From a virus: DNA of 22,008 nucleotides. The notes beneath the pieces are model-generated. The model saw nothing but the letters and a program-made list of their open reading frames with translations. It did no database searches and was not told where the DNA came from. The stretch lies in IMG/VR virus record IMGVR_UViG_3300023112_000104, positions 1-22,008 of that record; one strand, written 5' to 3'. Positions 5,078 to 17,941 of this stretch are shown piece after piece; positions within the stretch are counted from its first letter, which is position 1, and the number at the start of each line of letters is the position of its first letter. Position numbers and translations under genes: made by a program.

Positions 5078-5514
5078 CTGACATCAACCTTACTGTGTGA
5101 ATTAAAACCCTCACCCCCACGATTGCAATAAGCGCTATAAGTCCAGTTTCTATCATTCCATGCGGCCCAAATTGTTGCGGCATTTATAGCCCATATCGCG
5201 AAAGGGAATGCTGTGGATATGATTGTTTTATAACCCTCTGCAAAGTAGCAATCAACAACAGATATCGACATCAGTACGCAAGCTATCCCGGTTACTATCT
5301 GGCTTGATACCATTTTGAGCCGACACATTGCGATCCACCAGCCGAAAACAATCAGGAATAACGCCACGTAATAAACATAAAGCGGGTTCTGGTATTGCAG
5401 TAGTGCAAATGCACCATCGGTCAGTAGGTCAGCAAATCCTGCCACGAGTAACGCAACAGCAGCCCCCTGTTTATGAACAATTAGCGCTGCAATTATAAAT
5501 ATAATCGACACCAT
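5071..5514 (-). CDS. Multi-span membrane protein (147 aa), possible holin/antiholin partner
   Basis: A 147-residue membrane protein with about four hydrophobic segments: residues 1-27 (MVSIIFIIAALIV... AGFA), 44-65 (VYYVALFLIVFGWWIAMC), 71-90 (QIVTGIACVLMSISVVDCYF) and 99-118 (ISTAFPFAIWAINAATIWAAW). The C-terminal 30 residues are polar (NDRNWTYSAYCNRGG...). The ATG overlaps the intergenic region after a 26-aa ORF; its own Shine-Dalgarno is weak (AGAAG), suggesting coupling to that ORF, which stops 5 nt upstream. Its end overlaps the 65-aa protein. A membrane pair like this is typical of phage lysis or exclusion cassettes, but no family is recognised. Confidence 0.65.
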   Translation of the reverse strand: MVSIIFIIAALIVHKQGAAVALLVAGFADLLTDGAFALLQYQNPLYVYYVALFLIVFGWWIAMCRLKMVSSQIVTGIACVLMSISVVDCYFAEGYKTIISTAFPFAIWAINAATIWAAWNDRNWTYSAYCNRGGEGFNSHSKVDVRC

Positions 5515-8470: not shown

Positions 8471-8878
8471 TTATGGTTTAGTTACTGTGATGTTTAGGTT
8501 ATCAAGGCCCATTGAGCCATCAGATGAAACGTTGTCCTGTTGAACTTTTTCACTGTGCCCGTGCTTGTGCAGAAGTAGCTTAGCTATTGTCGGGTTCATT
8601 GCGCCGCCTAGTCCTCCGTTCATTAGTTTTAACTCCTGTGTGGCCCCCAATGCTGTAACGATGTCGGAAAAGCTTTCTCTGGTGCTCTCGCTTGCGTCTG
8701 ACGGCCATTCGCCAGCAGCCCACGAATGAATAGAGTCTCTTGATACTCTTGTGTATACGGATAGCCCAGCGATGGATGGGATAACTTCGCCCAACTCTTC
8801 CCAGCAATCCATATACTCATCAGCTTTGTTGATAAAGTCTTGCGTTAGCTTTGTCGGCCTCCCGTTTATTCCAGCCAT
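8471..8878 (-). CDS. terS: Terminase small subunit, P22 gp3-like DNA-packaging protein
   Basis: A 135-aa protein that would recognise the packaging site and recruit the large subunit. It begins MAGINGRPTKLTQDFINKAD, the 'GRPTKLT' start common to gp3-like small terminases, followed by a helical DNA-binding part (VIPSIAGLSVYTRVSRDSIHSWA) and the core LGATQELKLMNGGLGGAMNP followed by TIAKLLLHKHGHSEK. The C-terminal tail is polar. AAGGGG precedes the ATG and a strong promoter lies just upstream. Position next to terL supports the call. Confidence 0.88.
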   Translation of the reverse strand: MAGINGRPTKLTQDFINKADEYMDCWEELGEVIPSIAGLSVYTRVSRDSIHSWAAGEWPSDASESTRESFSDIVTALGATQELKLMNGGLGGAMNPTIAKLLLHKHGHSEKVQQDNVSSDGSMGLDNLNITVTKP

Positions 8879-13197: not shown

Positions 13198-13620
13198 TTA
13201 AAATTCTTGCAATTCTTTTAAATATGATTCAGCTTTGCCGGTTAACATTACTTGCGAATCTACACGCTTGATCACCCCGCTTTTTACCATTTCAACTGAT
13301 AATGCCCTAAAGGTGTCAATGCCGCGCTGTTTTTGTGCCGCTGACAGTTCTTTGAAATACGCTCGGGAGTTTAGGCGGTATTTAACCTCGGACAGATAAA
13401 CCCATCCATCTACACTGTTTTTTTGCATGATCGCTTTTATGAATTGAATGCGTGATTTATTCATTACATAGGCCTCTTCGGTTTCATAATCTTTAGCCAA
13501 CAAAACACAGCGCAATAACTCCGCCAGTTCAAAGCTAGTTTCAGGTAGTGGAATTAACCCATTTCCTGCGTCACTAACCATTTTAACCTGAGCCTTGTTT
13601 GTTTCGTTTGATTCAGTCAT
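13198..13620 (-). CDS. Probable winged-helix protein sharing a domain with the primase (140 aa)
   Basis: A 140-aa protein. Its C-terminal part, residues 71-128 (DGWVYLSEVKYRLNSRAYFK ... FRALSVEMVKSGVIKRVDSQ), resembles residues 848-904 of the primase/helicase at 14253-16961 (EGWRYLSKIKGHLRRQKYYQ ... FNNAITSLNGDRKIELIGKK). Shared positions are GW-YLS, K, L, Y, D-F, I and V-L, the plan of a winged-helix fold. The N-terminus is acidic and flexible. It is the first gene left of the candidate origin, behind a TTGACG-17-TAGATT promoter, with AAGGA upstream of the ATG. I infer DNA binding at the origin repeats; this is not proven. Confidence 0.75.
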   Translation of the reverse strand: MTESNETNKAQVKMVSDAGNGLIPLPETSFELAELLRCVLLAKDYETEEAYVMNKSRIQFIKAIMQKNSVDGWVYLSEVKYRLNSRAYFKELSAAQKQRGIDTFRALSVEMVKSGVIKRVDSQVMLTGKAESYLKELQEF

Positions 13621-13640
13621 TTTATGTCCTTTGTTGTTTT

Positions 13641-13679
13641 ATTTGTTTACAATCTACACCTCTCCCATCTTTTCGTCAA
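13641..13679 (-). promoter_or_regulatory. Sigma-70 promoter for the recombination operon
   Basis: On the minus strand TTGACG (13674-13679), 17 nt, TAGATT (13651-13656). An ATTTGTTTACA element (13641-13651, plus strand) overlaps the -10; the same 11-mer occurs at 10096-10106. It would drive the 140-aa gene, coiled-coil protein, 59-aa protein and recE. Confidence 0.55.
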
Positions 13680-13712
13680 GTAAAACGCGGGTATTTATTT
13701 TCGTTAATTAAA

Positions 13713-13909
13713 TTTCCGGGTTTCCCGGAATTTCCCTTCTGTTTTCCCACCATTGCGCAAAACTTAAAATCAACTCCAACCAAAATTCATGTTAGTGACC
13801 CCTAACCCCACAGAATACTTCCCTAAAGTACTAAAGAAAGAATTTTTATATTATTTTTTTTTATATATCTTTCTTTGGGAAACATTTATATGGTTTTTCC
13901 GGGTTTCCC
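13713..13909 (+). repeat. Repeated 14-mer TTTCCGGGTTTCCC (two exact copies)
   Basis: Exact copies at 13713-13726 and 13896-13909. The first is part of a 17-bp perfect palindrome with a 3-nt centre (TTCCGGG/TTT/CCCGGAA, 13714-13730). Confidence 0.8.
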
Positions 13910-13993
13910 TGTTTATTTAGCGTCTATACCTCCGTTTCCTGTTTTTCCTTTATATTTTATAGTAGATGTGCTTTAAGGCCCCCTATACGGATC

Positions 13994-14016
13994 GAAAACC
14001 CGGAAAACCCGGAAAA
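13994..14016 (-). repeat. Tandem repeat of the same core, opposite orientation
   Basis: On the minus strand TTTTTCCGGG followed by TTTTCCGGG and TTTTC: two tandem copies of a 9-bp unit (TTTTCCGGG), near-matches of the 14-mer above in inverted orientation. A further copy, TTTCCGGGACAGGGAAAA, is at 14071-14088 on the plus strand and overlaps the palindrome GGAAATTTCC (14066-14075). Confidence 0.75.
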
Positions 14017-14203
14017 ATAACGTAAGTTGTTGATTTTGAATTGTTTATTCTTTTTTTCTAGTGTGGGAAATTTCCGGGACAGGGAAAAGTTTTTTGCTGC
14101 TATGTGTCATGCAGCTTTCATGCCTGTTTTTTGTATATTCCAAAATATTATAAAGCCATATTTTTTTATGAAAAAATGTTATATAGGTTTTTCTTGCAAA
14201 TAT

Positions 14204-14228
14204 AAAAAAGCCCCGAATTAACGAGGCT
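14204..14228 (-). terminator. Rho-independent terminator of the primase/helicase gene
   Basis: On the minus strand AGCCTCG, loop TTAATT, CGGGGCT then TTTTT: a 7-bp stem (one U-G wobble) with a T-run, 25 nt past the stop of the 902-aa gene. Confidence 0.78.
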
Positions 14229-14252
14229 GTGAAATGGTTGTTTTCGCTTGTT

Positions 14253-16961
14253 TTATCTTTTTAATCGAACTTTTTTTCCGATCAACTCTATTTTTCTATC
14301 TCCATTTAGAGATGTAATTGCATTATTAAACGCATCTTGGCTATGTTGAGCAAGCTCATCTGCAATATCCTGGTAGTATTTTTGGCGTCTTAAATGTCCT
14401 TTTATCTTGGATAAATACCGCCATCCTTCGTCTGAATCATCCTTTGCAACATCTAGTCGTTTAAGTATAACTTCCTTTATACCTTCCAGTTTGGCCTCTA
14501 TTGTTTCCCCGTCTTTTGCCTCATTTACCTTCAAATTGCTTGCCATGTGTTGAATGGAGTTTATAGCCATCATAAGCGCAAATCTTACGTGATCAGTAGT
14601 AATCGTCATCGTGCCATCTACAAAATTACCAAGCGCCAAGATACTTGAAACATTTATTACTCGCTCAGATAGTCGGGCGTAAAGCGGCCCAAGTCGTTGG
14701 TGGTTCCTATAGTCGTTTTGCTCGTAATGATCATCTATATTGCATAACATTTCAAACGCCGCTGGTGTTGCGTCCACCTCCTTATTTACGCCGTTAAACT
14801 CATTTTCTACTGTTTTCTCAGACTCTTGATTTGCAAGCTGCGCAATCATTCCTATTTCAGCCTTCAGGTGCTCATAAAGAACCCGATCATCATTGCTTTT
14901 TTTGCCCCTGCGATCCCTTAGTGATGTATTTTTCTTTTCCCTTTCCTCACCACAATCAACCATTAAGCCGCGACCTAAAAAACCTTGCTCTATATTTTCT
15001 TCGTTGATCATGTCGGCCATTTTTTGAGGTGTTGATGATGCAGCTAGATTTAACGCAGGGTTTTTCACTCCTCTTTTTATAGACTCTAATAGCCTTGTTT
15101 GTCCGGCTATTTCTGCGGTTATATTGGCTATTTCAATCTCAATGGCTTTTATTTTGCCTTGCTCAAGATCTTTGTTATACCCCAGTAGGATATCCTGCTT
15201 TGCGGCTAACTGCTTTTCATATCTGCCGATCAGCTGGTATGCATCTTTTGCGAATTCACTTTGATGTAGTTTAGATAGTGTCAATAATGATGTAGTAGCC
15301 AAGCTCATCAATGTTCCGACTATCTGATCAGAGTTCGGATTGTTTTTTGTTGCGTTGTTGCTTAACAGTTTGTGTGCTTCATCGTAAACATAAAAACAGC
15401 GCCCTTGGTCGTAAATGGCAGCCCTTAAAATATCTTTATCTGATCTAATATCACCATAAGTAAACACATCTATTTCACTTAGAAGCTCTTTCATGACCTT
15501 TTGCGGACGTTCCTTACCTGCCGCAGAAACCCCTAGCATTATGGTTATAAGGCTTAATTTTGAATCAGCAAAGCCAGTCAACCCATAGCCAGCCATAGCC
15601 ATTGTTTGAATGGCAAACACGGAGTAAGCTCCACCAGTTAACCGTCTGTGCGCGCCATTTCTCGTATACTTCACGATCTCACCGGCCAATCCGGGAGGGT
15701 GATCAATATCAAGCCCATCAAAATCCACCCCCTCCGGCAAGGCGTCAAGCCCAGTTTTCTTTTTGGGTGCCGGTGCTTGTTGTGCCGGTGCTTGTTGTGG
15801 CTGATTTAACCAGCTTCCGAACACTGGCGCAGGTTGTTGTATTGGTTCTGGCCCCAACTCCGGAACGGGTGCGACTTCCAATGCAGCCAGCACCGGCTTA
15901 ATACCCATGTCTTTTTTAATGGCGTCACGCATGGCGATTTTACAATTATCTATGCCGTGTTTTTGTCGATAGTCATCCCAATCACCAAGCTCCGGAGGTA
16001 ATGCGACAATTGCATTAAATGGTGCAGCCGCTTCATTTGCGAAATATTCACCCGGTCGGCGATTATGCACTTCATCTAGCTCATCGTGATCAGCAAATAT
16101 AATAATGCGTGAGTCAGGATGATCTTCTTTTGCTTTTTTAACTGCCGCTGCAAGGTTGCCTGTATTATATCCACAGTAAACTTCATACCCAGTCATAAGA
16201 TTGACTGTTACGCCGGTTGCATAGCCTTCAACAACTGCAAGCGTTTTTGTTTTGCCATCTATAATGTGTTGCACCCCGGCCATGTCACCACCCCACAACG
16301 GGCGTTTTGTGCCGTCTTTTGTGATCTTCTGTACGTTTACCAGTTCGCCATTTTTATAAAACGGTACAAGCAATAATTCACCGGTTCCAATGATCGCGCC
16401 TTTGCTCATTATTGGTTCTCCGTTAGTCAGCCATTTACCGGTTAAACCTTTGTTTGTCATGTATTCATGCTCAGTAAGAAAAGACGACGCAATCAATACC
16501 GCAGCACCTTTTTTTGCCTGCTGAATGTTGGCTTTTCGGATCTCGTCATCATTTACCTGGTGGATCCGTTTTGGCGCGATAGATTTATGCATATCATCGC
16601 CGACCAGTTCTTTTGCAGCTTCGATTGTTGGCTTGCCAAGGTAGCGTGAGAGCAACAATAAACCGCCGCCGCTTTGTGGTTCGCATTGAGAGCAAAACCA
16701 AGTGCCCCTCCCGTTTTTATCATCAAAGCGAAAGCGATCTTTACCGCCACACACAGGGCAAGGACCGTGATGTTTACCACTTGGCAACCTTGCACCGTAG
16801 TTTTCAAGCACGCTGCGCCATTGCCCATTGAATTGTTCTAAAGCTTTATCTATTGGGCTGTCGCCGTTTGATTGGTATTTCCCGCCGCGTTCTTTCCAAC
16901 ACATGCAGGCGTCATTAGTAAAATGACCGCATGATAATTTTAAAGGGAATTTTAAGTTCAT
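14253..16961 (-). CDS. Primase/helicase: P4-type Zn ribbon + Toprim + DUF3987-like ATPase
   Basis: A large replication protein of about 902 aa. In order (numbered from the upstream GTG): a primase zinc ribbon, C71-C74...C93-C96 (HGPCPVCGGKDRFRF ... WFCSQC); a Toprim domain with VVEGYATG (Glu248) and FADHD (Asp294/Asp296); a Pro/Gln-rich linker (370-405); a RecA-like ATPase with Walker A LGVSAAGKERP (479-489) and Walker B YVYDEAHKLL (527-536); an inserted coiled coil (about 575-635); and a C-terminal winged-helix-like segment (848-904). Walker A ends GKE where Ser/Thr is usual. I choose the ATG at 16959-16961 (AGGTG 7 nt upstream); a GTG at 16970 adds three residues. It probably primes and unwinds DNA at the nearby origin. 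It is preceded immediately by a small HTH gene and followed by a terminator. Confidence 0.9.
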   Translation of the reverse strand: MNLKFPLKLSCGHFTNDACMCWKERGGKYQSNGDSPIDKALEQFNGQWRSVLENYGARLPSGKHHGPCPVCGGKDRFRFDDKNGRGTWFCSQCEPQSGGGLLLLSRYLGKPTIEAAKELVGDDMHKSIAPKRIHQVNDDEIRKANIQQAKKGAAVLIASSFLTEHEYMTNKGLTGKWLTNGEPIMSKGAIIGTGELLLVPFYKNGELVNVQKITKDGTKRPLWGGDMAGVQHIIDGKTKTLAVVEGYATGVTVNLMTGYEVYCGYNTGNLAAAVKKAKEDHPDSRIIIFADHDELDEVHNRRPGEYFANEAAAPFNAIVALPPELGDWDDYRQKHGIDNCKIAMRDAIKKDMGIKPVLAALEVAPVPELGPEPIQQPAPVFGSWLNQPQQAPAQQAPAPKKKTGLDALPEGVDFDGLDIDHPPGLAGEIVKYTRNGAHRRLTGGAYSVFAIQTMAMAGYGLTGFADSKLSLITIMLGVSAAGKERPQKVMKELLSEIDVFTYGDIRSDKDILRAAIYDQGRCFYVYDEAHKLLSNNATKNNPNSDQIVGTLMSLATTSLLTLSKLHQSEFAKDAYQLIGRYEKQLAAKQDILLGYNKDLEQGKIKAIEIEIANITAEIAGQTRLLESIKRGVKNPALNLAASSTPQKMADMINEENIEQGFLGRGLMVDCGEEREKKNTSLRDRRGKKSNDDRVLYEHLKAEIGMIAQLANQESEKTVENEFNGVNKEVDATPAAFEMLCNIDDHYEQNDYRNHQRLGPLYARLSERVINVSSILALGNFVDGTMTITTDHVRFALMMAINSIQHMASNLKVNEAKDGETIEAKLEGIKEVILKRLDVAKDDSDEGWRYLSKIKGHLRRQKYYQDIADELAQHSQDAFNNAITSLNGDRKIELIGKKVRLKR

Positions 16962-16970
16962 TTTATTCAC

Positions 16971-17338: not shown

Positions 17339-17941
17339 ATGAGTGCATTTTTTAAACCAATGGAAGAGCAAGACATTAATTATGAAGGTTTTTACGACGG
17401 TCAAAACAAGATAGTGCCTGACAATACCGAGCTCGAGTTTTCAGTAATCGATGGCTTCATGGGTATCGAAGAAGGTAAAAGCCAGCAGGTTTGTCTTATC
17501 AATATTTCAATTACAACACCAGGCGAGTTTTATGGTCAAAAATATCGTTACAACGCGAAAATCTTTGATGTAGATGCAAACAAGCGCGATCTAGCAATGC
17601 GCAATCTTGGCGTTTTAGATGCACAAGCGGGCTTTCCAATGACCAACGGACAAATGGAGCCGACAACTGAAAACGTCCAGGATTATTGGGTTGGCGCTGC
17701 AGAAGGTCGCGTTAAGTTTGGTTTGTTCGTGGACGAAGAAGACGGGCGTGAAATTAACTTTGTGCGCGGATTTGGTTATCTACGTGAAAAAATGCGTAAG
17801 CCTGGGCAGCAGAAAGCGCAGCAACAGCAGTCAGCTCAGCAGCAATCCGGTCCGGCTTATGCAGATCAGCAGCAGTCAACAACTGCAACAACAATGCAAA
17901 ACGCTCAACATCCAGAGCAAGAGGTTGATATCGACTTCTAG
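17339..17941 (+). CDS. SSB-like single-stranded DNA-binding protein (200 aa)
   Basis: A 200-aa protein with a beta-rich N-terminal domain (about 1-150; LEFSVIDGFMGIEEGKSQQV, INISITTPGEFYGQKYRYNA, GRVKFGLFVDEEDGREINFV), a Gln-rich low-complexity linker (157-190; QQQQSAQQQS), and an acidic tip EVDIDF at the extreme end. This plan, OB-like domain, flexible linker and acidic tail ending in Phe, is that of bacterial SSB (tail DDDIPF). The core looks like the phage DUF669-type group rather than classical SSB; that is recognition, not a search. It would coat single strands and recruit helicase and recombinase. First gene of the rightward operon; a terminator follows. Confidence 0.75.
   Translation: MSAFFKPMEEQDINYEGFYDGQNKIVPDNTELEFSVIDGFMGIEEGKSQQVCLINISITTPGEFYGQKYRYNAKIFDVDANKRDLAMRNLGVLDAQAGFPMTNGQMEPTTENVQDYWVGAAEGRVKFGLFVDEEDGREINFVRGFGYLREKMRKPGQQKAQQQQSAQQQSGPAYADQQQSTTATTMQNAQHPEQEVDIDF

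Follow-up and report, generated by a model that had tools for sequence, protein, structure and literature searches.

The origins of iteron plasmids have iterons that adjoin an A/T-rich melting region. In phage lambda, the iterons also lie beside an A/T-rich melting region (PMC11447400), within a replication gene, and are bound by a separate O-type initiator. PICI origins are located immediately 3' of pri-rep, with two iteron sets flanking an A/T-rich region, and a pri-rep-ori segment of EcCICFT073 supports plasmid maintenance (Fillol-Salom et al., 2018, PMC6092414). Among the Gram-negative members of this group the iteron sequence varies between elements (PMC6092414). In P4 (NC_001609), the annotated cis-required region, crr, carries 8-bp iterons in both orientations with ∼9-bp spacing directly 3' of the terminator of the alpha gene, while a second iteron cluster, ori, is found 4.5 kb away. 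The pRN1 replicon likewise places its origin downstream of a primase-helicase (ORF904) that ends in a winged helix, although this origin is a large stem-loop without iterons and the primase is of the archaeo-eukaryotic kind (PMC4234260).

Here we describe a locus of similar layout in a virus record of 22,008 nucleotides, referred to below in its entirety as the window. The record is a fragment, judged by its genes to derive from a tailed phage; its gene content includes a terminase, RecT, a PDDEXK exonuclease, a primase, and an SF2 helicase (Pfam). A gap beside the primase gene is very probably the replication origin of this phage, of the iteron type and bound by the primase-helicase. No description of an origin in these phages turned up in text searches of the literature.

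The repeat array in the gap

The gap spans 632 bp (13621-14252) between the gene of a 905-aa primase-helicase (14253-16970, minus strand) and that of a 140-aa protein (13198-13620, minus strand). An earlier note on this DNA had placed a gene-free region here, correctly in substance but with bounds (13690-14100) narrower than the true interval. The sequence TTTCCGGG occurs five times in the window, and all five copies fall inside the gap, which makes up 2.9% of the window and would hold about 0.1 copies by chance. Exact 8-mer repeat pairs number 58 in the gap compared with 10.3 (sd 4.2) in dinucleotide shuffles, none of 300 shuffles reaching 58. When all segments of the same length are ranked by repeat density, the gap is the highest among the non-coding stretches of the window, and only segments within a repetitive coiled-coil gene (∼12.1-12.9 kb) score higher. 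With P4 as a control, this statistic ranks crr first and ori second, and thus detects known origins of such style.

The iterons, in both direct and inverted orientation, form two sets (13713-13735 and 13896-14087) on either side of a 28-bp pure A/T run at 13841-13868. Across the run from the other iterons lies the cluster TTTCCGGGTTTCCCGGAATTTCC (13713-13735), which includes the perfect inverted repeat TTCCGGG-TTT-CCCGGAA (13714-13730) and one of two exact copies of TTTCCGGGTTTCCC (13713-13726). The other exact copy (13896-13909) belongs to the second set, together with a degenerate pair, TTTCCTGTTTTTCC (13935-13948; repeat family D1, 79% identity), the tandem iterons AAACCCGGAAAACCCGGAAAAA (13996-14017), in which two CCCGGAAA units are spaced by 9 bp (13999, 14008), and the site GGAAATTTCCGGGACAGGGAAA (14066-14087). 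The tandem pair also reads as a 9-bp repeat in inverted orientation, GAAAACCCG, at 13994 and 14003. The earlier note had listed the two exact copies, the palindrome, the tandem inverted repeat, and the A/T run, all of which are present; its sixth, degenerate core exists as well (14071-14078, within GGAAATTTCCGGGACAGGGAAA) but is an exact TTTCCGGG.

The proposed melting site (13833-13876) consists of the A/T run within 9-nt inverted arms, AAAGAAAGA/TCTTTCTTT (13833-13841/13868-13876). A single-strand hairpin over this tract in the window is no stronger than in shuffles (z -1.4), and a conserved A/T-tract hairpin was rejected as a general feature, being strong in some relatives only. A candidate IHF-like site, AATCAACAACTTA (WATCAANNNNTTR; 14023-14035, minus strand), is a motif match that is suggestive only, as an equally good match occurs in 5% of shuffles. 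A universal IHF site was also rejected: the motif is present in some lineages only, and its extended form was picked after the sequences had been seen.

On the primase side, the gap holds an intrinsic terminator of the primase-helicase gene (14209-14228, minus strand; 7-bp stem and T run), in the layout of the alpha terminator beside P4 crr. On the other side, a promoter-like match, TTGACG-17-TAGATT (13651-13679, minus strand), may serve the gene of the 140-aa protein, the number of promoter-like sites being not above that in shuffles. An Rfam search gave no match at the gathering threshold, and no tRNA gene was found. GC skew, which the earlier note had put forward as a check, follows gene direction in the window and turns near 17.0 kb rather than at the gap; it was set aside as uninformative about the origin. 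Beside this turn is a divergently transcribed gene for a single-strand DNA-binding protein (17339-17941; phrog_9002).

The primase-helicase and its small paralogue

The proposed initiator matches Pfam Zn_Ribbon_Prim and Toprim_3 and phrog_25777 (DNA primase). It is composed of a primase half with zinc ribbon and Toprim domains, a helicase half with Walker-like motifs, and a C-terminal winged helix; invariant residues include G485/K486 and D530/E531. Residues 45-351 share 38% identity with P4 alpha (E 7.7e-47). The alignment stops at residue 351, leaving the helicase half unaligned, and a profile of the C-terminal part found no match to the P4 alpha C-terminus. Membership in the P4 alpha family was consequently rejected beyond the primase half. 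In a model of the full-length protein, the helicase half was too poor for use.

The C-terminal domain (residues 806-905; 14256-14555, minus strand), the putative iteron reader, was modeled as a fragment with AlphaFold2. From fragment residue 20 onward the pLDDT is ∼90 or more, and the confident model displays a helix-turn-helix core followed by a β-hairpin wing. Its putative recognition segment contains residues that vary among the relatives compared. A PDB fold search with this domain returned no significant match, the best including many generic winged helices, and a Pfam search of ten window proteins gave no match to a plasmid Rep family.

The 140-aa protein, a possible regulator, is a paralogue of this winged helix (BLASTP E 2e-7; profile E 1.3e-6), and an HMM of the small winged-helix proteins retrieves the primase-helicase (E 1.6e-8). 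It probably arose by duplication of the initiator's binding domain. Eta and contig L051 retain strong iteron arrays although a separate gene for a small winged-helix protein was detected in neither, which leaves the primase-helicase as the constant partner of the iterons. In L012 (C-terminal ORF ending at 8565) and L056 (7119-7562), the primase is followed by a separate small ORF whose winged helix closely resembles primase C-terminal domains in sequence, apparently through a recent or an independent duplication of the domain.

Iterons in related phages

Relatives of the primase with 38-65% identity occur in Vibrio, Shewanella, Serratia, Erwinia, and Aeromonas phages and in IMG/VR contigs. In most of them a gap of ∼470-880 nt lies directly 3' of the primase gene. 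Among the exceptions, the gap is longer in L047 and contains tandem repeats, is reduced to 109 nt in 1.158.O, is occupied by an annotated gene in Aeromonas phage 62AhydR11PP, and was not seen in L044 and L056; the sequences of Gungnir and L009 stop before its end. At ∼6960-7090 of L047, after a small ORF just 3' of the primase gene, there is a direct-repeat run of ACACCTACGAAT in roughly ten copies. Vibrio phage 1.158.O (L025) has a deletion relative to 1.175.O that removed the gap flanks along with the small winged-helix gene; the 88 bp that remain between the primase-helicase and the next gene (5259-5346) are exactly the A/T-tract core. Its primase-helicase reads as two ORFs.

Four iteron groups were recognized: CCGGAAA in the window and L003 (the same virus), TGAGTTTT/TGAGACA in 1.191.O, 1.086.O, L004, and L058, TAGGAAA in L042, and GGATAA in Eta, L010, L016, L017, L051, and Gungnir. 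Counts are well over the shuffled expectation in each group, with no crossing between groups except for stray single copies. A single iteron cluster was found in 1.191.O and in Eta, as in the window. The winged-helix sequence sorts in the same way, with, for example, KIKANI(K/R)RQ accompanying TGAG iterons and VKQ(S/T)ITK accompanying GGATAA. Such a correspondence is what joint change of protein and site would produce, but common descent by itself would produce it as well.

Significant short repeats were not found in Shewanella phage 1/41, nor in most 1.201.B-type and freshwater-type relatives; in the freshwater contigs L053 and L048, a few repeats of 12-17 nt, each in two copies, are present instead. 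In such repeat-poor lineages, either the iterons are degenerate and mostly dispensable or melting and loading are done differently. The conservation that the earlier note had looked for is hence partial: the gap is kept and iterons recur in four lineages, but their sequence differs and two lineages are without significant short repeats.

Exact-pattern scans of IMG/VR with the window iterons retrieved only the same virus and unrelated contigs, and a scan for TGAGTTTTTTGAGACAG gave isolated matches, mostly one site each, in contigs that lack the primase. The 9-mer CCCGGAAAA, the unit of the window's tandem pair, is repeated five times in perfect tandem at L149 8773-8816, L151 143-186, and L148 14718-14761, directly upstream of a 222-aa gene in a phage that does not carry the primase of the window. 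This gene looks by eye like one for an ERF-type annealing protein, and the array is either a coincidence or another iteron array.

A natural cassette swap

The DNA of Vibrio phages 1.191.O and 1.201.B is 91-98% identical from the SSB gene through primase residue ∼370, except for one stretch of 83%. Identity then falls: the helicase and winged helix match at 51-68%, the gap at 36-45%, and the small gene at 44-61%, before a return to 97% at the gene that follows; as unrelated DNA gives ∼40% in a global alignment, the gap values mean ‘not alignable’. Relative to 1.191.O, the same drop and return are seen in 1.225.O. The flanks of the swapped segment are 90-98% identical, with breakpoints in the primase-helicase linker and just past the small gene. 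Identity between 1.191.O and 1.086.O, another phage with the TGAG iteron, stays at 94-97% through helicase and winged helix. It follows that a single cassette made up of helicase, winged helix, gap, and small gene was exchanged, taking the iteron type with it. On these alignments, the iteron type is co-inherited in one block with the helicase/winged-helix half, and the swap is a stronger test than the group-wise agreement between winged helix and iteron.

P4-type primases in other elements

A wider sample comprised 62 distinct loci, bacterial or viral, whose primase N-terminus is of the P4-alpha type and which, so far as can be judged, are prophage- or satellite-like. Significant repeat arrays are found in the 500 nt 3' of the gene at 52 of the 62 loci and in the 500 nt upstream at six; the loci are related to one another and do not count as 62 independent events. 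The arrays include many different iteron sequences, and their 3' position fits the PICI literature. Many such loci are found in Xenorhabdus, Photorhabdus, Pectobacterium, and other genomes (L067-L145, 500 nt 3' of the gene), where the iteron families are visibly different, for example GTGGGGGAA, GAACCAAC, TGGTAACA, and AGTGAGGA, with GTAGATAA, ATCCCTAC, CTGTTCAC, and ACGGGATA as further families.

A probable iteron origin and its alternatives

The window follows the PICI and P4 plan in that its iteron array is immediately 3' of the primase-helicase stop codon, with repeats above the level of shuffles, and its two iteron sets flank an A/T-rich region. The comparison with P4 made in the earlier note is apt, as crr holds 8-bp iterons of the same kind in the corresponding position and the primase half is of the P4 alpha type in both. 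The iteron itself differs, as do the helicase half and C-terminal domain, which are not alignable, and P4 has its distant ori whereas one cluster was found in the window. In contrast to PICIs, the origin would reside in a tailed phage and not in a satellite island, and a duplicated winged-helix gene flanks it. Iterons next to an A/T-rich melting region are shared with lambda-type and iteron-plasmid origins, but here the proposed initiator is the primase-helicase itself. An origin role beside the primase/helicase, as first suggested in the note, stands as the best reading, which we infer from the plan shared with P4 crr and PICIs (PMC6092414). Its further suggestion of a new origin type was too strong: the repeat unit is unfamiliar, but the type is already known. 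The novelty is in the lineage, the helicase with its binding domain, the duplicated winged helix, and the swap, and not in the origin plan.

Other functions have to be weighed for such an array. A promoter-like sequence and a winged-helix gene adjoin it, and the nearest iteron ends ∼35 bp upstream of the -35 hexamer, so the repeats could be operators through which the small winged-helix protein or a Cro/CI-like repressor controls the promoter at 13651-13679, making the region regulatory instead of an origin. Such an arrangement is unlikely, as the iterons reach ∼400 bp from the promoter, on either side of the A/T tract, strong arrays are kept in Eta and L051 even though a separate small winged-helix gene was not detected in either, and the array position 3' of P4-type primases is general. 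It may nevertheless be partly true as well, since origins and operators can coincide. Repeat arrays also mark packaging, partition, and recombination sites in other elements. That the present array is one of these, beside the primase gene by chance, is highly improbable, given that the terminase genes are 5-7 kb off in the window and elsewhere in relatives and that, at more than 60 loci in different elements, the arrays go with the primase-helicase. The inverted repeats at 13714-13730 and 13999-14013 score as terminator-like hairpins, yet it is scarcely credible that they act as transcription terminators or insulators between two operon parts, with no replication role. The primase-helicase gene already has a terminator of its own, and this explanation leaves out the five exact cores in both orientations, the 9-bp tandem pair, and the lineage-specific families (GGATAA, TGAGTTTT) with their co-exchange with helicase and winged helix.

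For the gap as an iteron origin, the position of the array, its repeats, its co-inheritance, and the domain content of its neighbor are observed; binding, melting, and initiation are modeled on the P4 and PICI precedent. The C-terminal winged helix of the primase-helicase would bind the iterons, and the bound protein, possibly with help from IHF, would melt the A/T tract. The helicase half would then load and unwind the DNA, and the primase half would supply primers to the host polymerase; the window, itself a fragment, showed no polymerase gene. As a guess from homology and position, the 140-aa winged-helix protein could regulate the process, competing with the initiator for its sites or similar ones and in this way likely tuning either initiation or its own promoter.

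Implications for phage replication

A P4/PICI-type plan appears here in a tailed-phage lineage whose enzyme has a helicase half and a binding domain not alignable to those of P4. The arrays at L067-L145 constitute a ready data set for decoding initiator-iteron specificity, and the natural swap offers ready-made pairs, 1.191.O and 1.201.B, for learning how such initiators read iterons. The rule of looking just 3' of a P4-type primase gives a practical means of predicting origins in unannotated phages and satellites. More tentatively, and with somewhat greater doubt than belief, we suggest that these tailed phages carry swappable origin cassettes consisting of helicase, winged helix, iterons, and a duplicated winged-helix regulator, in which a swap would change the origin-recognition group and the duplicated winged helix would act as a copy-number or timing brake on the shared iterons. 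If so, cassette exchange would give these phages plasmid-like replication-compatibility types.
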